7,713 bases of DNA from contig RFFU01000090.1 in assembly GCA_003697085.1 (NCBI GenBank), positions 1 through 7,713 of the forward strand, given 5' to 3'. Origin of the DNA: Candidatus Hydrogenedentota bacterium. Lineage in GTDB: Bacteria; UBA8481; J006. Shown in pieces: positions 1 through 7,713 of this stretch (position 1 is the stretch's first letter; the number at the start of each line of letters is the position of its first letter). A program made the translations under genes and the position numbers. The notes under the pieces are model-generated. The model was not told the DNA's origin. It made no database searches and was given only the letters and a program-made list of their open reading frames with translations.

Positions 1-180
1 CCCATCCGCTCCTTGATCCTCTCGGACGTGAACTATCCGATCTCGATCGGCAGCCCCAGCGTCTATCGTTTCTTGCTTCCTTTTGACCGAAACACGGATT
101 ATTCCCTTCTTCTACGGCCCGGCGCCTCCGCCTCTCTCTCTGTGCGAATTCGTTTTCGTTATCCTCCGCGACGATTCTGA
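1..180 (+). CDS. C-terminal fragment of an unrecognised protein (5' end outside window)
   Basis: Reading frame 1 is open from the first base to a TGA at 178-180, giving 59 residues with no start codon needed because the gene begins upstream of the window. The translation alternates hydrophobic and polar residues (for example YPISIGSPSVYRF, then DYSLLLRPG, then SVRIRFRY) and looks like strands of a beta-sandwich ending. Its pyrimidine-rich codon choice matches the ABC transporter genes further right, which supports real coding. It converges on the YfhO-type gene and their 3' ends overlap at 112-180. I do not recognise the family; the tail of a glycosyltransferase or of an exported protein is possible, but this is a guess. 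The main doubt is that only 59 residues are visible. Confidence 0.5.
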   Translation, partial: PIRSLILSDVNYPISIGSPSVYRFLLPFDRNTDYSLLLRPGASASLSVRIRFRYPPRRF

Positions 181-2364
181 CTTCAGGAACGGCGCAGGTC
201 CCCCACGAGAAAGCCGCGGTGACAAGAGCAGAAAAAGCAGGCCTACAGCACCCGCGGAAGCAAGGAGCGAAACCCTCCATCCTGGGGGAAGATAACGAAA
301 AGCGACTTGGGAACGTCCGGGGGGGACACGCACGGAACGGAGGAAACCGAGAAAGGGGATTATCGGACGAGCCCGGCCGTTCACCTCGGCCCGCCATCCC
401 GGCGCCCAGGCATCGGCGAGCACAAGCGTGGCTGCGGTTTCCGTCTCGACCTCGATGAAAACTGAATTGTTGTCCTCGCGGACGATTTTTGCGGCGCCGG
501 TCCCCTCGAGGAGATAGACGCGTTCCTTCGCCTTCGGGTTCTCATAAAGCGCTATCCTTCGAAGCGGGAACGTTTCCGCGAGGACCCAGGGCAGGGGGGG
601 AGGAGGAGAGAGGTCGAGGTGGTTGATCCGCCATCGAACGGCGAAGAAATTGAGGTAGGGAGCATAGAGGGAGGCTGAATCCGATTCGAGCACCTCGAGA
701 TACCGCCGTGTCCGGCGGCTGAGGAGGAGTTCGTTCGCCCCCTGGGCGTGCCGGACGCCCCAGAGCGCACCGCGGGAGGGTTGGATGACGAGCCGACCGA
801 TCTCGGCCGTCCGAGCCTCTTTTCCGAATATCGGCGGCGCCGGAGCACTCCACCACGCCTTATCGACAAAGATGCGTCCTTTTCGAACTCGTGAAGCAAT
901 CAGCGGCGGGGCATAAGCATCTTGCGGTATCAACTCCGCAAAACGCCCCCCGGCTCCAAGGAAATCGATTACGAGGATGACGGGAACGATAACCGGAACA
1001 ACACTCCTCTTCCGAAAGAAAAGAAGAACCACGGCCATGCAAAAGAGGGCCACCACCGAATCCCGCGCGGCGGAAAGGCCGTAGGTGCGCAAGAAGGAGC
1101 CGAAATGCCGATCCAAACCGGCCAGCGAAACACTTGCCGGCAACGCCGTTCCAAGGATGATCGATACGAAAAGAATGAAACGGCTGGAATACTTCAAGCG
1201 AAGAAGTCCATCAAGTCCATAGGCCGCAAGAATCGGAAGGGCCAGGGAGGTAAACCAGAGGTATTTGATCGGATAACGGACAAGGTGAAGAGGCAAAGCG
1301 AAAGACCAGAGGAGCCGAAAGAGGGGGGAATGGGAACCGCCGGCCAACACGATCCCCAAAGCGGCGACCACAAACCAAAAGAGAATCCGTATCCGCTCTT
1401 TTCGGTTTCGGTGGAAAGGAGAAAAGACGGCAAGGAAGAGAACCGGAGATCCTAGGTAAAGGGAGCCGAAAAGAGGAAAACCATTGGCAAAGAGGTTCGA
1501 AAAAAAGACGCGGTGTCCATCAGGCGCCACGAAACCGTAAGGCAGAAAAAGGCTTCCGATGTTGTGAAGTCCCAGCGAATCCACCAACGCGGAGGCGGGG
1601 GTGAGTCCCCGACTGCGAACGGACTCCGCGAAGGTGTGCAGGAGCACGGGGATCCAGGCCGGCGCGGCCAAGAGCGTTCCCAGAATCAAGGCCCCCGTTC
1701 CCGAGAAAAACCGTTTCTTTCCACCGTAAACGAAACCTCCGGCCAGCGCCACCGGTCCTAGAATCATCGCGCGTTCCCACGATCCCCCCGTAATCACCAA
1801 CCCCCACGCGAGGGTACCGTAGAGCAGAGGTCGGCGGGAATGGAAGACCGCCCAGAGAAAGAAGACACCGTACGCGGCTATCGTGAGATGATGCGGAACC
1901 GGCGATTCGCATATTCTCAGCGCAGAAAACGCAAACGCCGTCCCCCCCGTGACCGCGGGAAGTATCCCCAAGCCTTCCTTCTTGAGAAAAAGCACCATTA
2001 AGCCGTAGGCAAGAACATAGAAAAGAAGAACGATCCCGGTAAAGAGAACCGGCACACGGCCGGGCAGGAGAAAAACGAGGTTGGATGGATCGAGGGGAAA
2101 ATACGCCGGTTGAGCGATCAGCGGTACGCCTCCCGCGGGATAAGGATTCCAGAACGGAAGTATTCCGTGACGAAGCGAAGACGCGATCACGGCTTTCGCC
2201 GGTACGTAAGTGCTGTGCAGGTCACGGAAATAGAGGACGTCGCCGAAGAGAAAACGAGGGAAGATCAAGAGCGTGGCGGTAATCCCCCAAAGGAGAACGA
2301 TCGCGCTTCCAAGAAATCGTGACAGTCCAGACCGCAATCCTCTGTCTCTTCGGATAACGCGCAC
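112..2364 (-). CDS. YfhO-type polytopic membrane protein (putative GT-C-like glycosyltransferase)
   Basis: Predicted integral membrane protein of 750 residues resembling the bacterial YfhO family, whose studied members are linked to sugar modification of cell-wall or teichoic-acid polymers. The N-terminus has a membrane helix (about 18-38) followed by an external loop with YFRDLH (45-50), whose Asp48 sits where GT-C enzymes keep a catalytic acid. Then comes the family signature ILPFWNPYPAGGVPL (68-82). About a dozen further hydrophobic segments follow to about 470, including VRYPIKYLW (362-370) and AAYGLDGLL (380-388), both typical of the family. A soluble C-terminal part has WAPGWRAEVNGR (653-664), then VPPG and FRYLPPGW, and a last helix at about 698-715. 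The GTG start at 2364 is chosen because AAAGGAG lies 8 bases upstream. The frame stays open to 2574, but those 70 residues are arginine/glycine-rich and precede the ribosome site. The final roughly 30 residues are charged and low-complexity, and fall largely in the overlap with the convergent gene. Substrate is unknown. Confidence 0.85.
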   Translation of the reverse strand: MRVIRRDRGLRSGLSRFLGSAIVLLWGITATLLIFPRFLFGDVLYFRDLHSTYVPAKAVIASSLRHGILPFWNPYPAGGVPLIAQPAYFPLDPSNLVFLLPGRVPVLFTGIVLLFYVLAYGLMVLFLKKEGLGILPAVTGGTAFAFSALRICESPVPHHLTIAAYGVFFLWAVFHSRRPLLYGTLAWGLVITGGSWERAMILGPVALAGGFVYGGKKRFFSGTGALILGTLLAAPAWIPVLLHTFAESVRSRGLTPASALVDSLGLHNIGSLFLPYGFVAPDGHRVFFSNLFANGFPLFGSLYLGSPVLFLAVFSPFHRNRKERIRILFWFVVAALGIVLAGGSHSPLFRLLWSFALPLHLVRYPIKYLWFTSLALPILAAYGLDGLLRLKYSSRFILFVSIILGTALPASVSLAGLDRHFGSFLRTYGLSAARDSVVALFCMAVVLLFFRKRSVVPVIVPVILVIDFLGAGGRFAELIPQDAYAPPLIASRVRKGRIFVDKAWWSAPAPPIFGKEARTAEIGRLVIQPSRGALWGVRHAQGANELLLSRRTRRYLEVLESDSASLYAPYLNFFAVRWRINHLDLSPPPPLPWVLAETFPLRRIALYENPKAKERVYLLEGTGAAKIVREDNNSVFIEVETETAATLVLADAWAPGWRAEVNGRARPIIPFLGFLRSVRVPPGRSQVAFRYLPPGWRVSLLASAGAVGLLFLLLSPRLSRGGPAPFLKSESSRRITKTNSHRERGGGAGP

Positions 2365-2372
2365 GATCCCTT

Positions 2373-2379
2373 CTCCTTT
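2373..2379 (-). promoter_or_regulatory. Ribosome binding site deciding the YfhO-type gene start
   Basis: On the minus strand AAAGGAG is followed by 8 bases and then GTG (2364-2362). This is the best ribosome site in the open frame, and it sets the start 70 codons inside the longest possible reading frame. Confidence 0.7.
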
Positions 2380-2407
2380 ACCGCTGTCAAGGGTAGCAGA
2401 GGGGGAA

Positions 2408-2425
2408 ATTCCGACAAGGCGGAAT
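2408..2425. repeat. Perfect 6-6-6 inverted repeat in the YfhO-type leader
   Basis: ATTCCG, six bases (ACAAGG), then CGGAAT. It lies 44-61 bases upstream of the GTG start on the minus strand, so it could be an operator or a leader hairpin. A six-base arm can arise by chance in this much GC-rich sequence, so its function is uncertain. Confidence 0.4.
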
Positions 2426-2520
2426 CCCAGCCGTGACACTCGCCCTCCAAAAATGCACACTCGGTACCGCGCTATTCTTCCGCGGCCGAAAATGCCTGTC
2501 CCCCCCCGGCGGATTTGAGA

Positions 2521-2549
2521 TTGAATTGCTAACACAGGAAGCGTATCTT
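2521..2549 (+). promoter_or_regulatory. Candidate sigma70-type promoter of the ABC importer operon
   Basis: TTGAAT (2521-2526) and TATCTT (2544-2549) are separated by exactly 17 bases. Each matches four of six consensus positions. Transcription would start near 2556, giving a leader of about 50 bases before the TTG start at 2608. The position in a divergent intergenic region directly upstream of the operon fits. This is inferred from consensus only. Confidence 0.5.
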
Positions 2550-2595
2550 TTCCCCCGAACCATGGAACGCACATTCACAATCACCGTTGAAGAAC

Positions 2596-2600
2596 GGAGG
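2596..2600 (+). promoter_or_regulatory. Ribosome binding site deciding the substrate-binding protein start
   Basis: GGAGG is followed by seven bases (CTTGTCG) and a TTG at 2608. It would lie inside the gene if the upstream TTG at 2587 were used, so it favours the 2608 start. Confidence 0.7.
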
Positions 2601-2607
2601 CTTGTCG

Positions 2608-4023
2608 TTGGATAGGAAACTCCATCGCGCGCCCTGCCATTTTTCAAAATCCCCGCCCTTCAGGAATAAGCCCGCCGGGATTTCTCTTCCGTCTTTTCGT
2701 TTCCTCCGCTCCTCTTTCCTCCTCGTCCTCTCTCTTGTTTTTCTCTCTTCCTTCCTCCCCGGATGCGGCGGTTCCTCCTCTCCTTCATCCCCTGGAAAGA
2801 ACAAGACGATCGCGTTCGCCGTGGGAGGCGCTCCGAACGAGATTGCGTTCTGGGAACGGCTTGCCAAAGAGTTCGAATCCCGCTCCGGAATCGGTGTCCG
2901 CCTGATACGCCAGCCGACCAACACCGATCAGCGGCGCCAGGGACTCGTGTTGGCGCTCAAGGCCCATCAATCCGACCCGGACGTCTTCTTGATGGATGTC
3001 GCTTGGATCGGCCAATTCGCCGCCGCCGACTGGCTCCTTCCCCTTTCCGGTGGACTCTCTCCGGTCAAGACGAAACCGAAGGAACTCTTCGAGAACGTGA
3101 TCCGGACGGCGGGAACCTATCGTAATCGCGTCGTTGCGTTACCGGTTTATGTTGATGCGGGCCTGCTCTATTACCGCACGGACCTTCTCGAAAAGGCCGG
3201 ATTCGATTCCCCCCCGAAGACGTGGCCGGAACTGGTAGAGATGGCTTCGAAGATTCAGCGACGGGAGCGAGCGCGAGGCAGGCGGCGTTTCTCGGGATAC
3301 GTCTGGCAGGGCGCACAATACGAGGGGCTCGTGTGTCATTTCCTCGAGGTGGCGTCGAGCGCGGGGGGCGGAATCGTCGTAAACGGGAAGGGGCTTCTTC
3401 ATGTCGCCTCGCCTCAAAACGTCCGCGCTCTGACCTTCCTGCGCGATCTGATTCGGAAATGGAGGATTTCGCCGCCGAGCACCTACACGGAGATGCGCGA
3501 GGAGGAGGTTCGCCGGGCGTTTCAGCAGGGACGGGCGCTTTTCGAGCGGAACTGGCCCTATGCCTGGGCCCTCCACCAGGATACGGAATCCCGCGTCCGG
3601 GGAAAGGTGGGGCTCGCTCCGCTTCCTCACTTCGACACGTATCCTTCCGCCGCGACTTTGGGCGGATGGCATATCGGAATCTCGCGATTCAGCGATCGGA
3701 AGGCCGCGGCGGGCGCCTTCGTCGATTTCGTTCTCTCTCCGGAGATTCAGAAGCGGTTGGCGCTAAATCTGGGTTGGAATCCGGGCCGCCGTTCGACCTA
3801 TACGGACAGCGATGTCCTGGCAAAGGCACCTCACCTGGCGGCACTCTCCCGGGTCTTCGAAAACGCCGTCGCCCGTCCCAACCTTCCTTACTGGCCGCTC
3901 GTCTCCGCCGCGCTCCAAGAACACCTCAATGCCGCGCTGGCCGGAAGGGAATCCCCCGAGGACGCCTTGAAGCAAGCCGAGGAGGCGATGAACGAGATCG
4001 CCGCACGATACGAAAGCCCCTGA
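2608..4023 (+). CDS. ABC importer carbohydrate-binding lipoprotein (family 1 extracellular solute-binding protein)
   Basis: Binds a sugar or oligosaccharide outside the cytoplasmic membrane and delivers it to the two permeases encoded next. The TTG start at 2608 gives 471 residues. The n-region is unusually long (about 30 residues, basic), then a leucine-rich helix ends in the lipobox FLPGC with the lipidated Cys at 53, followed by a Gly/Ser/Pro linker to about residue 64. Family features in order are a first strand at about 66-74, DVFLMDVAW (125-133), ALPVYVDAGLLYYRTDLLEKAG (about 177-198, the usual hinge-region segment), FERNWPYAW (312-320), VGLAPLPHF (334-342) and TLGGWHIGIS (350-359). The pattern DVFLMDVAWIGQFAAADWL resembles maltose/trehalose-binding proteins, so such a glycan is the best guess; sequence alone does not settle the ligand. 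It is the first gene of the operon, with 10 bases to the next. A shifted start is possible because no ATG lies near the signal peptide. Confidence 0.9.
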   Translation: MDRKLHRAPCHFSKSPPFRNKPAGISLPSFRFLRSSFLLVLSLVFLSSFLPGCGGSSSPSSPGKNKTIAFAVGGAPNEIAFWERLAKEFESRSGIGVRLIRQPTNTDQRRQGLVLALKAHQSDPDVFLMDVAWIGQFAAADWLLPLSGGLSPVKTKPKELFENVIRTAGTYRNRVVALPVYVDAGLLYYRTDLLEKAGFDSPPKTWPELVEMASKIQRRERARGRRRFSGYVWQGAQYEGLVCHFLEVASSAGGGIVVNGKGLLHVASPQNVRALTFLRDLIRKWRISPPSTYTEMREEEVRRAFQQGRALFERNWPYAWALHQDTESRVRGKVGLAPLPHFDTYPSAATLGGWHIGISRFSDRKAAAGAFVDFVLSPEIQKRLALNLGWNPGRRSTYTDSDVLAKAPHLAALSRVFENAVARPNLPYWPLVSAALQEHLNAALAGRESPEDALKQAEEAMNEIAARYESP

Positions 4024-4033
4024 ACGGCAGTCG

Positions 4034-4906
4034 ATGAGCCGGCCGCGGAAATACCTTCTCCGCGTGCTCCCCTACCTCTTTCCCCTTCTCCTCCTTCTCG
4101 GCCTCTTCGCGGCTCTACCTGTCCTGGGCACGATCGAGAATAGTTTTTTTCGGGATATTCCCTTTCTGCCGCGACATTGGGCCGGTTTCGAGAATTACCG
4201 CGCCATCCTCTCCTCATCCGATTTTCGTAAGAGCCTCTGCTTCACGCTCCTGTTCACCGCTGTCTCCGTTCCGATCGAGATCGTGCTGGGGTACGTCTAT
4301 GCTCTGACGCTCAACGCCGTCTCTCGCCGCCGACTCCTTCAGGCCGTTCTTCTTCTCCCTTGGGCGCTTCCGCTCGTCGTTGCCGGCCGCCTCTGGCAAC
4401 TCGATACCGATTACCATTCCGGCATCCTCAACCTTCTTCTGACCCGTTTCGGTTTCGAACCCGTCAATTGGCTCGGAACACCGGCCCGTGCTTTCACGCT
4501 CCTCGTCGTCGCCGATTCGTGGAAAACCGCTCCTTTCGTTGCCATCATTCTTTACGCCGCTCTGACAACCATTCCGCAATCGCTCTACGAACAGGCCTCG
4601 GTGGACGGCGCAGGTCTCTTGCGTCGTTTTCTCTTCATTACGCTCCCTCTCACACTACCGTCGGCCTTTGTCGCAGGCCTCTTTCGGTCCGTTGACGCCC
4701 TTCGAATCTTCGACCTCGTCTTCGTCCTCACGCACGGCGGTCCCGGCGGTGGAACCACCTCCCTTTCGCTTCTCGCTTACCGGTACTATCTCTCCGGGGA
4801 TTTCGGGACCGGCGGCGCCGTCTCCGTTCTTCTCTTCGCCGTCGCCTTCCTCGTCTCGCTCCTTCTCGTTCGGCTCCTCCGCGCTCCCACCGAGGCGGCC
4901 GTATGA
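4034..4906 (+). CDS. ABC sugar importer permease, MalF-like (binding-protein-dependent inner membrane component)
   Basis: One of the two membrane subunits forming the translocation channel of the importer. It has 290 residues, usual for this family and without the large periplasmic insertion of E. coli MalF. About six membrane helices are visible, near 10-34, 68-92, 101-120, 155-178, 206-226 and 261-282. The cytoplasmic EAA loop, which docks onto the ATPase, is clear: EQASVDGAG (186-194) followed by the LP pair (204-205). Just beyond it lies LTHGGPGGGT (232-241), a stretch very common in MalF/UgpA-type permeases. The ATG at 4034 lies 10 bases after the previous stop, with only a weak ribosome site, consistent with translation coupled to the upstream gene. 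Its last four bases overlap the next gene. The sense strand is strikingly pyrimidine-rich, which reflects its Leu/Phe/Ser content and codon choice. Confidence 0.93.
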   Translation: MSRPRKYLLRVLPYLFPLLLLLGLFAALPVLGTIENSFFRDIPFLPRHWAGFENYRAILSSSDFRKSLCFTLLFTAVSVPIEIVLGYVYALTLNAVSRRRLLQAVLLLPWALPLVVAGRLWQLDTDYHSGILNLLLTRFGFEPVNWLGTPARAFTLLVVADSWKTAPFVAIILYAALTTIPQSLYEQASVDGAGLLRRFLFITLPLTLPSAFVAGLFRSVDALRIFDLVFVLTHGGPGGGTTSLSLLAYRYYLSGDFGTGGAVSVLLFAVAFLVSLLLVRLLRAPTEAAV

Positions 4907-5727
4907 GACAACATCCTTCGGCTCGCCTTCTTACCATCCTCGGAACGGTCTTCGTCGTTCTCTTCTCGCTCGGCCCGCTCCTCCCCGCCCTCCTGGTCAG
5001 CCTCTCCCGCACGGGCACGCTCGTCTCGTTCCCCGCGCTTTCCCTTACTCTCGATCATTACCGTACGGTCCTTTCCTCGCCAACGCTCAAATTCGGCCGG
5101 GCACTCGGAAACGCCGTTTTGCTCAGCCTAACCGCCAGTCTCCTTGCCGTCGGAACCGCCCTTCTCGGCGCCTTCGCGCTTCGCCTCCTGCCCCCCCGCC
5201 GCCGGCCGTTCCTTCTGCTCTCCGTTCTCGCCCTCTCGCTCTTTCCACAAATCAGTATCATCGGAGCACTCTACCGCGCGTATTCCAACCTCGGCTTGAT
5301 CAATGTCCTTCTCGCCCTCGCTCCCCCCTACGCCGCCCTCTTCCTCCCGCTCGTCCTTTGGCTCCTTCACGCGCTCCTTCAGACCGTGCCGCGGGAATTG
5401 GACGAGGCGGCACGGGTCGATGGTGCCGGCGATACAACCATTCTCGCGCGCATCCTCGTGCCCCTTTCCCTCCCCGGAATCCTCTCCGCCTTCCTGCTGG
5501 TTTTCGTTCAAGGATTCAACGAATTCCTCTACGCCCTGATGCTTCTCGTCGATCCCAACGCGCGGACTGTCTCCGTCGCGATCGCAATGTTCGAGGGCCT
5601 GCACGGGAGGATCCCGTGGGGCGAAACGATGGCGGCCGCGGTGATTGCATCGCTGCCCGCGGTTCTCTTGGCTCTCTTTTGCCAGAAGTGGATCATCGCG
5701 GGACTGACAAAGGGAGCGGTGAAATAA
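4903..5727 (+). CDS. ABC sugar importer permease, MalG-like (binding-protein-dependent inner membrane component)
   Basis: Second membrane subunit of the importer, 274 residues, a normal MalG-family length. About six helices are visible near 9-32, 70-97, 104-123, 137-160, 188-210 and 243-264. The EAA loop reads ELDEAARVDGAG (165-176) with the LP pair at 190-191. The C-terminus GLTKGAVK (267-274) matches the typical MalG ending, whose tail contacts the ATPase in the maltose transporter. The start overlaps the previous stop in an ATGA arrangement (4903-4906), the classic sign of translational coupling within an operon. The operon appears to end here: the next gene is 192 bases away, unrelated, and no ATP-binding subunit follows. 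Confidence 0.93.
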   Translation: MRQHPSARLLTILGTVFVVLFSLGPLLPALLVSLSRTGTLVSFPALSLTLDHYRTVLSSPTLKFGRALGNAVLLSLTASLLAVGTALLGAFALRLLPPRRRPFLLLSVLALSLFPQISIIGALYRAYSNLGLINVLLALAPPYAALFLPLVLWLLHALLQTVPRELDEAARVDGAGDTTILARILVPLSLPGILSAFLLVFVQGFNEFLYALMLLVDPNARTVSVAIAMFEGLHGRIPWGETMAAAVIASLPAVLLALFCQKWIIAGLTKGAVK

Positions 5728-5782: not shown

Positions 5783-5919
5783 TTCTTGAGCGATGGGAAA
5801 GCAGGAGGGAATTCCCGGAAACTTCCCGAAAGGTCAGAAAGCGGACAGAGCGGAGAGCGCGGCGGGGTCGAGCCGAGGCTTACGGCGACGCCGAAGGTAA
5901 CAGGAGGAGGAGCGAAGAG
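5783..5919 (+). other. Long purine-rich leader of the FecR-GspG gene, with a possible short upstream ORF
   Basis: If transcription starts near 5789, the leader is about 130 bases. It contains the palindrome GGGAATTCCC (5807-5816), a near direct repeat TTCCCGGAAA/TTCCCGAAAG (5812-5821 and 5823-5832), and a tight hairpin CGGC-GAC-GCCG (5883-5893). An ATG at 5793 opens a 35-codon frame ending in TAA at 5898-5900, just before the downstream ribosome site; its product would end in a run of arginines. I could not match the leader to a riboswitch class I know. The short frame has no clear ribosome site and may be chance. Confidence 0.35.
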
Positions 5920-6879
5920 ATGCTGTGCTTGAGACTCGAAAGGCAGGCGTGGAAGACGGCAGTGGTTGTACTGGGGTTTCTTTTGGCCTTCGGCGCGGCA
6001 TGTGGTAGAGCGAACGAAGCCGTGCCGGCTGCGAAGCAGGCTTCGGAATCGGCCGCGGCCGTCGCGGGGGTCCCCGTCGCCGGGATGGTGACCTCGGTAA
6101 AAGGCACCGCGGAGATACTCGAAAGGGAAAACGGAACCGAGACATGGCGGGGATTAAAGGTTAAGGATTCCGTCCCGCCCGGCTCTCGCATCCGCACCAG
6201 CGACGGCCAAGTGGATATCCTTCTCGCAAAAAAGAGCGCCGTGCGTTTGAAGAAGAATTCCGAACTGATGCTCGAAAAGAACGAGGAAGTCGAGGGAAAA
6301 TCGGTCATTGATGTCAGGCTGGACCGCGGAAGAATCCTGCATCGCTTCGAAGGACAAAAGGGGGCGGTGGAATACAATCTGAAGACGGCCGTTGCGGGCG
6401 CTGTCGTGCGGGGGACGAAGTTCGACGCGGCGTACCAATCAGGGGTTGCCCGGATCCGCGTCCTTTCGGGCTCGGTCGAGGTTCGGAACGCGAAAGGCAA
6501 GGCGATGGTGGCGGCGAAGCAGGGGGTCGAGATCGAAGAGAACGAAGCGCCGCCGGCGCAGCCCGCGCGCCTGACGGACCGCGATCTGAAGGAACTGGGC
6601 GAGTGCAATCTGCTCAATCTCGCCGTGGCGATCAAGAAGGCACGAAAGGTCGCCTCGATCGCCGAGATGCGTAATCTCACAAATGCCCTCGACCTCTTTA
6701 TGGCGATGCACGGACGTTATCCCAAGACCCTCAAGGATGCCGGCATCGCCCAATTCCGAGACCAGTGGGATCGGCCCTACCGATACACGGTGTCTCCGGA
6801 CGGGCGGGACTACACGCTCAAGAGCGACGGGCCGGACCAGCGCCCGAACACGGAGGACGACATCGTCCTCAAGCACTGA
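5920..6879 (+). CDS. Exported FecR-domain protein with C-terminal GspG-type pseudopilin core
   Basis: Protein of 319 residues with unknown cellular role. An N-terminal export signal is visible: basic start, hydrophobic 13-27, then AACG with Cys28. The residue three before the Cys is Gly, so the lipobox is imperfect and lipidation uncertain. Residues 29-54 are an Ala-rich linker. Residues 55-204 form a FecR domain: VTSVKGTAEIL, then VPPGSRIRTSDGQVDILL (85-102), VIDVRLDRGRI (129-139), VAGAVVRGTKFDAAY (158-172) and VLSGSVEV (181-188). A charged, probably helical stretch (219-258) leads into the soluble core of a type II secretion major pseudopilin (about 245-319): LTNALDLFMAMHGRYP, WDRPYRY (283-289), YTLKSDGPD (298-306) and TEDDIV (311-316), the last two covering the calcium-binding end of GspG. 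The pilin prepilin-peptidase site and membrane helix are absent. The start has the strong ribosome site AGGAGGAGGAG 7 bases upstream. It is transcribed alone. FecR is most likely a ligand- or partner-binding beta domain here; no sigma factor lies nearby. Confidence 0.88.
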   Translation: MLCLRLERQAWKTAVVVLGFLLAFGAACGRANEAVPAAKQASESAAAVAGVPVAGMVTSVKGTAEILERENGTETWRGLKVKDSVPPGSRIRTSDGQVDILLAKKSAVRLKKNSELMLEKNEEVEGKSVIDVRLDRGRILHRFEGQKGAVEYNLKTAVAGAVVRGTKFDAAYQSGVARIRVLSGSVEVRNAKGKAMVAAKQGVEIEENEAPPAQPARLTDRDLKELGECNLLNLAVAIKKARKVASIAEMRNLTNALDLFMAMHGRYPKTLKDAGIAQFRDQWDRPYRYTVSPDGRDYTLKSDGPDQRPNTEDDIVLKH

Positions 6880-7191: not shown

Positions 7192-7713
7192 GTGACGAAG
7201 AAGACGGTTTGGCTTTATTCTCAGGAGAACACCTGCCCGCTCTGCGGCACCCGATTTCCTTCCGAGAAGGTGCTTTCGCGGAAGATCGCTCCGCGAGCGA
7301 TCGGAGAAGGTTTGCGGAACATCTACGACGAGAACGCCGACCATCCGGACCCGATTCTCTACTCGATCACCGTCTGTCCGAAGTGCCTATTCTCGGCTTT
7401 CGAGGCGGATTTCGCCCGCGCGACGATCAATTCCGCCGGTTTCAAGAACGCCTCCTCCGAATCGCGTTCCGTCCTCGCGGCGTTATCGCTTCTGCCCGGC
7501 CATTTTCTTGAACCGCGCACGGTCTTGACCGGTCTTGCGTCATACTTTCTGGCCTCCCTTTGGTATCAACATCGGGAAAAGTTCCCGATCCGCAATCTCC
7601 GGCGGGCCATGAGTGCCTACCGCCGGGTATGGTTTCTCGATCCCGCTGGAAGGCTCGGAGCCGATCCCTCATTGCAGGACATCCCAGAAACGGACCGCGC
7701 CCGGTACAGGCTC
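7192..7713 (+). CDS. DUF2225-type zinc-ribbon protein, 3' end outside window
   Basis: The frame is open from GTG at 7192 to the last base, giving the first 174 residues. An in-frame TAG at 7171-7173 leaves this GTG as the only usable upstream start. The ribosome site is unusual: GGAG at 7185-7188 is only three bases away, while AGGAG at 7172-7176 is 15 bases away. Two CxxC pairs, TCPLCG (Cys15, Cys18) and VCPKC (Cys62, Cys65), are spaced as in DUF2225 proteins, with the typical ILYSITVCPKCLFSAFEADF context (55-74). They probably bind one zinc ion. After this the chain appears helical (about 92-150), with SAYRRVWFLDPAG (141-153) resembling a TPR-like repeat, which is usual for the family. There is no signal peptide, so it is likely cytoplasmic. 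The molecular function of the family is not established. Confidence 0.82.
   Translation, partial: MTKKTVWLYSQENTCPLCGTRFPSEKVLSRKIAPRAIGEGLRNIYDENADHPDPILYSITVCPKCLFSAFEADFARATINSAGFKNASSESRSVLAALSLLPGHFLEPRTVLTGLASYFLASLWYQHREKFPIRNLRRAMSAYRRVWFLDPAGRLGADPSLQDIPETDRARYRL

Follow-up and report, generated by a model that had tools for sequence, protein, structure and literature searches.

What can a protein do with the head of a pseudopilin when the parts that carry such a head into a filament are missing? The question is raised by one gene in a 7,713-nucleotide stretch of DNA from Candidatus Hydrogenedentota bacterium (assembly GCA_003697085.1, contig RFFU01000090.1; hereafter the window), which encodes a protein of 319 residues with an export signal, a FecR domain and a C-terminal core of the GspG type. 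The gene (5920..6879, stop codon included; forward strand, as are all its features given below) is whole, as judged from its open reading frame, Pfam and an ortholog, and a strong ribosome-binding site (AGGAGGAGGAG, 5902..5912), read directly from the sequence, lies 7 nt ahead of the ATG. Its neighbours in the window are, by Pfam, a YfhO-like protein, an ABC sugar-type transporter and a DUF2225 protein. The YfhO-like membrane protein (112-2574, reverse strand) is divergent from the ABC transporter operon (2587-5727), and the start of the DUF2225 gene (7192-7713), which carries two CxxC zinc-type pairs, is cut by the contig end. Membership of our gene in the upstream transporter operon is unsupported, given a gap of 192 bp and a neighbour that is found beside no relative, and a promoter scan upstream of the gene yielded nothing useful.

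The protein starts with a hydrophobic segment that forms an export signal over residues 1-27 and leads to a probable lipobox, FGAA-C28 (5920..6003, with the Cys28 codon at 6001-6003). The sequence FGAAC at residues 24-28 fits the PROSITE-type lipobox pattern, and the ortholog in G001 carries a clearer lipobox, TIIG-C, with the cysteine at the same aligned position. By these sequence patterns, the signal is probably that of a lipoprotein and the protein probably lipid-anchored. The FecR domain follows at residues about 55-208 (6082..6543); its Pfam match covers residues 90-187 (6187-6480) with an E value of 2.5e-13 and 50.7 bits (cut-off 24), which places the protein in PF04773. Structural alignment superposes residues 86-210 on the juxta-membrane subdomain of PupR (6ovk, residues 111-232) with a Z score of 14.1 and 2.3 A over 118 residues. 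In PupR, this subdomain (110-238) is followed by an STN subdomain (250-324) (PMC7186176), and the window protein likewise resembles the sigma regulators FecR and PupR in having a FecR fold and then a second small C-terminal domain. Unlike them, however, it has no cytoplasmic anti-sigma domain, begins with an export or lipoprotein signal and carries a GspG core at the position of the STN subdomain; by the tests run, it is not a sigma regulator.

Among NCBIfam families, the FecR region is most like the Leptospira surface lipoproteins Lsa33 (NF047849) and LipL45 (NF033165), with 59.3 bits over residues 55-228, but this score is far under the family cut-offs of 420 and 350 bits and the GspG core is left unmatched. 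Residues 51-147, the first FecR stretch, also align with 5ix9, a ‘cell surface anchoring domain’ (Z 6.5), as does the model of a relative (Z 8.0), a likeness that may reflect a structural link or merely a common beta arrangement.

The helix-less GspG core occupies residues about 230-318 (6607..6867, to residue 316) and is seen by several routes. Pfam T2SSG (PF08334) matches with an E value of 4.3e-7 and 30.4 bits (cut-off 21), best over residues 280-314, and no further Pfam domain appears in the protein up to an E value of 1. A profile built only from 25 true prepilins gives the C-terminus 45.7 bits over residues 231-316, whereas the highest-scoring of 2000 shuffles reaches 7.6 bits, and residues 224-318 align with the GspG/EpsG structures 3g20, 3gn9 and 3fu1 at a Z score of 9.1, well above unrelated rows; shuffles and fold together rule out a chance match. 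The AlphaFold2 model, built from 12 sequences (mean pLDDT 72, pTM 0.45), is usable for the domains and not for their relative placement; it predicts beta strands over residues 55-208, then a helix (230-264) and the strands of the pseudopilin fold. The model of an Omnitrophota-type relative, whose FecR part is of low confidence so that the core alone was used, gave no significant whole-model Foldseek match, and its core matches PulG with a Z score of 10.5.

With GspG, PulG and EpsG (PF08334; 3g20, 1t92, 3fu1) the window protein thus shares the core fold, a D-W-x-x-P-Y segment, present as WDRPYRY (6766..6786) and aligned as the counterpart of the GspG DPWGxPYxY, and a GPD...TEDD loop. In contrast to them, it has no prepilin peptidase site and no hydrophobic N-terminal helix: a prepilin cleavage signature is absent from the 319 residues, the N-terminal signal is their only hydrophobic segment, and the TIGR01710 score of 22.9 bits is below the cut-off of 88.85. 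By the tests run it is not a pseudopilin, and because both the prepilin site and the hydrophobic helix are absent, its incorporation as a normal pseudopilus subunit is impossible. The original prediction, made from the sequence alone, is largely borne out in this anatomy: profile and structure searches recover both the FecR domain that it had placed at about 55-204 and the GspG core, the predicted fold holds the pseudopilin strands, with the calcium motif showing one departure, and the export signal stands, now refined to a probable lipoprotein signal. Two of its statements are only partly right. The core, which it had set at 245-319, starts nearer to 230, and the pilin helix, which it had taken to be missing together with the cleavage site, is missing only in its hydrophobic half, the amphipathic half being retained.

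The departure concerns the loop GPDQRPNTEDD (residues 304-314, 6829..6861). The PERCAL/GspG motif consists of eleven residues, G-x-D-G-x-x-[GN]-[TN]-x-D-D, which coordinate calcium in 3G20, and a consensus PERCAL peptide binds calcium at 33-79 micromolar (PMC3396595). The window loop departs from this motif at position 4 only, where glycine is replaced by glutamine, and in alignments the proteins of G001 and G270 keep loops like it. From these sequences, calcium binding may matter in the branch to which the window belongs. Such a loop could mean that the GspG fold serves as a small, stand-alone periplasmic binding domain for calcium or a ligand, in which calcium stabilises the C-terminal loop and which has no role in secretion. 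The PERCAL-like motif kept in the window, G001 and G270 proteins speaks for it, as do two non-FecR proteins that have a GspG core with the motif and without a prepilin signal and so suggest a wider reuse of the core. The glutamine in place of the consensus glycine speaks against it, and so does the Omnitrophota-labelled branch, which keeps the fold (PulG Z 10.5) and has lost the acidic motif. Because of that loss, calcium is not the general role of the family, and the reuse of a calcium-binding fold that had been proposed for this protein holds at most for the window’s branch; as an account of the protein as a whole we consider it doubtful.

The sequences of the two non-FecR proteins show the GspG core reused outside filaments. 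One, of 466 residues, ends in a GspG core (T2SSG 40.1 bits), has no prepilin site and carries the full PERCAL motif GPDGVRGTEDD; it is encoded on contig C67 of the window genome (L006 1438-2838, reverse strand, the same as L124 6946-8346). The other, in G270 (L187 2980-3624, forward strand), has its GspG core (T2SSG 37.7 bits) in one chain with a single hydrophobic segment and an N-terminus that resembles a zinc finger. A further open frame in G133 (L186 5203-6648, forward strand) joins an enzyme that by eye resembles sialic acid synthase to a complete GspG prepilin (KKGFTLIEIL), and is either a true fusion or the product of a lost stop codon.

How widespread is the combination of FecR and GspG? 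The sole other genome of the phylum, G001, encodes an ortholog with both domains and 43% identity over 268 residues. A profile built from 15 two-domain proteins and run over 386 diverse genomes, with a match needed over both domains, finds the architecture in 10 of them (G000, G001, G270, G075, G125, G262, G379, G025, G310 and G172), which represent about six lineages; within the phylum of G125, 11 of 35 genomes carry it. The survey for the same two-domain order that the original prediction had called for is thus positive, and the retention of both domains in the ortholog and in other lineages rules out an assembly or frame artefact. Contigs of the G125 phylum are mostly labelled Candidatus Omnitrophota in the named collection, where a contig search with the single window protein as query returned no relatives and one with an Omnitrophota-type alignment recovered them. 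A single origin is neither established nor rejected by the FecR tree: the fusion label needs four changes on it, and one fusion clade is not rejected (p-AU 0.26). In a search confined to the literature, we found no paper combining ‘FecR domain’ with ‘pseudopilin’, and GspG, FecR and lipoprotein occurred together only in one genome report. The FecR–GspG domain combination therefore appears undescribed in the literature searched, whereas operons of FecR and CHASE2 proteins are already known.

Conservation within this family also bears on another explanation, that the GspG core is a structural cap that takes the place of the STN subdomain and passively stabilises the FecR beta fold, with no specific partner. 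The PupR subdomains degrade rapidly once purified separately (PMC7186176), and the core does hold the position of the second one. Yet the WxRPYRY and GPDxxxNTEDD surface loops are conserved between orthologs of 43% identity, which goes beyond what a passive cap needs, and many FecR proteins have other C-terminal domains or none; we regard this explanation as improbable.

The gene context of the relatives points first to signalling, as the fusion genes lie beside CHASE2 receptors and not inside clusters for type II secretion systems (T2SS). Of the 17 loci whose flanks are readable, 12 have the fusion gene next to a CHASE2 receptor gene, although these counts are not phylogenetically independent, as 9 of the 12 adjacent cases come from one phylum, that of G125; of 68 FecR-only loci retrieved along with them, 9 have CHASE2 no more than 150 bp away. 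Four of the lineages with readable loci show the adjacency. Nine fusion genes of the G125 phylum come directly after, and often overlap, a gene for a CHASE2-class III cyclase (on the G399 contig the cyclase part only, its CHASE2 part being off the contig), and a GAF-histidine-kinase-like gene precedes the cyclase where the contig reaches far enough. The neighbour in G075 and G379 is instead a CHASE2 protein with a Ser/Thr protein kinase domain, and in G001 the CHASE2-cyclase gene is divergent from the fusion gene across a 40-bp gap. In G417, CHASE2 lies in the same cluster without being adjacent; that cluster (L119 6928-12608, reverse strand) encodes a CHASE2 cyclase, a FecR-only protein, a GAF/kinase-like protein, a response regulator on the opposite strand and the FecR–GspG protein, and so has both kinds of FecR protein beside one receptor. 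No CHASE2 gene adjoins the fusion gene in G000, G025, G310 and G172, which speaks against a tie to the receptor, and the contigs of G413 and G270, which end too early for a call, are outside the 17.

The window gene itself has no CHASE2 gene beside it or elsewhere on its contig, so that the FecR–CHASE2 module is not seen at this locus. Its genome does encode a CHASE2 cyclase, on contig C77 and with no FecR gene beside it, which is 38% identical over 796 columns to the one in G001 and, on that similarity, is the apparent ortholog of the cyclase adjoining the fusion gene there.

We therefore read the FecR–GspG protein as a signalling accessory that serves a CHASE2 receptor from the periplasm, and give this reading a probability of about one half. 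It is the best supported because the output enzyme varies while the FecR–GspG partner stays, and because FecR–CHASE2 operons are known from Burkholderia, where a LysM-FecR protein and a CHASE2 histidine kinase form an operon, ‘BiofilmReg’ (PMC5192318). In both systems, an exported FecR protein is encoded next to a CHASE2 receptor whose cytoplasmic domains vary; in ours, however, a GspG core stands where Burkholderia has LysM, the Burkholderia output is a histidine kinase, and the window gene has no CHASE2 neighbour. That the relatives often adjoin membrane receptors suggests part of a sensor rather than of a filament, and an output domain that changes beside a constant partner speaks for a contact on the periplasmic side.

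The core could still have kept an interest in filaments. The original prediction had suggested that the protein could cap, bind or sense a type II secretion or pilus-like filament from the periplasm, and had proposed checking its co-occurrence with type II secretion genes. PF00437 proved uninformative for this, as it matches in 14 of 14 controls, and PF08334 was used instead, with GspG-positive genomes counted by hand from its search table. A true GspG (E value <= 1e-20) is encoded in all 10 fusion carriers, against 142 of the 386 genomes overall (37%), with hypergeometric probabilities of 3.7e-5 by genome, 0.0023 for six lineages and 0.007 against FecR-positive genomes. The co-occurrence that had been anticipated is thus present, but it is correlative. 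It is consistent with a sensor whose helix-less core docks on the pseudopilus of a T2SS or type IV system, on its tip or on the platform that assembles it, and whose FecR half signals the machine’s state to a receptor. Such a sensor would be a special case of the CHASE2-accessory reading, with the filament as ligand, and the conserved DPWGxPY loop kept in the core agrees with it. The co-occurrence is also consistent with a core copied from a resident GspG gene, in which case the correlation would arise without any function. As no fusion gene lies inside a T2SS or pilus cluster among the loci examined, and T2SSE-type ATPases occur too widely to be informative, we hold filament sensing to be unlikely, and rather more so the full periplasmic relay in which a FecR domain carrying a pseudopilin head as a decoy would read a T2SS or type IV filament and set the output of a CHASE2 cyclase or kinase.

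As an accessory of CHASE2, the protein would be exported, probably lipid-anchored and resident in the periplasm, with its GspG core C-terminal to the FecR domain, where PupR has the STN subdomain. It would cooperate in trans with a membrane-bound CHASE2 receptor, either a class III cyclase or a Ser/Thr kinase, binding a ligand or partner in the periplasm and offering it to the sensor domain of that receptor; the sensor domain would then switch the cytoplasmic enzyme. The two domains, their conservation, the fold matches and the recurring adjacency to CHASE2 receptors are what the data show; physical contact with CHASE2, this direction of signalling and the ligand are what we infer. For the window protein, the receptor would be the cyclase encoded on C77 of its own genome.

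CHASE2 receptors are widespread. The factors that they recognise have been stated as not known (PMC5192318), and the FecR–GspG family, found repeatedly beside them, is a concrete candidate for what CHASE2 sees. With a non-polymerising pseudopilin head on such a partner, cross-talk between secretion machinery and second messengers becomes directly testable.
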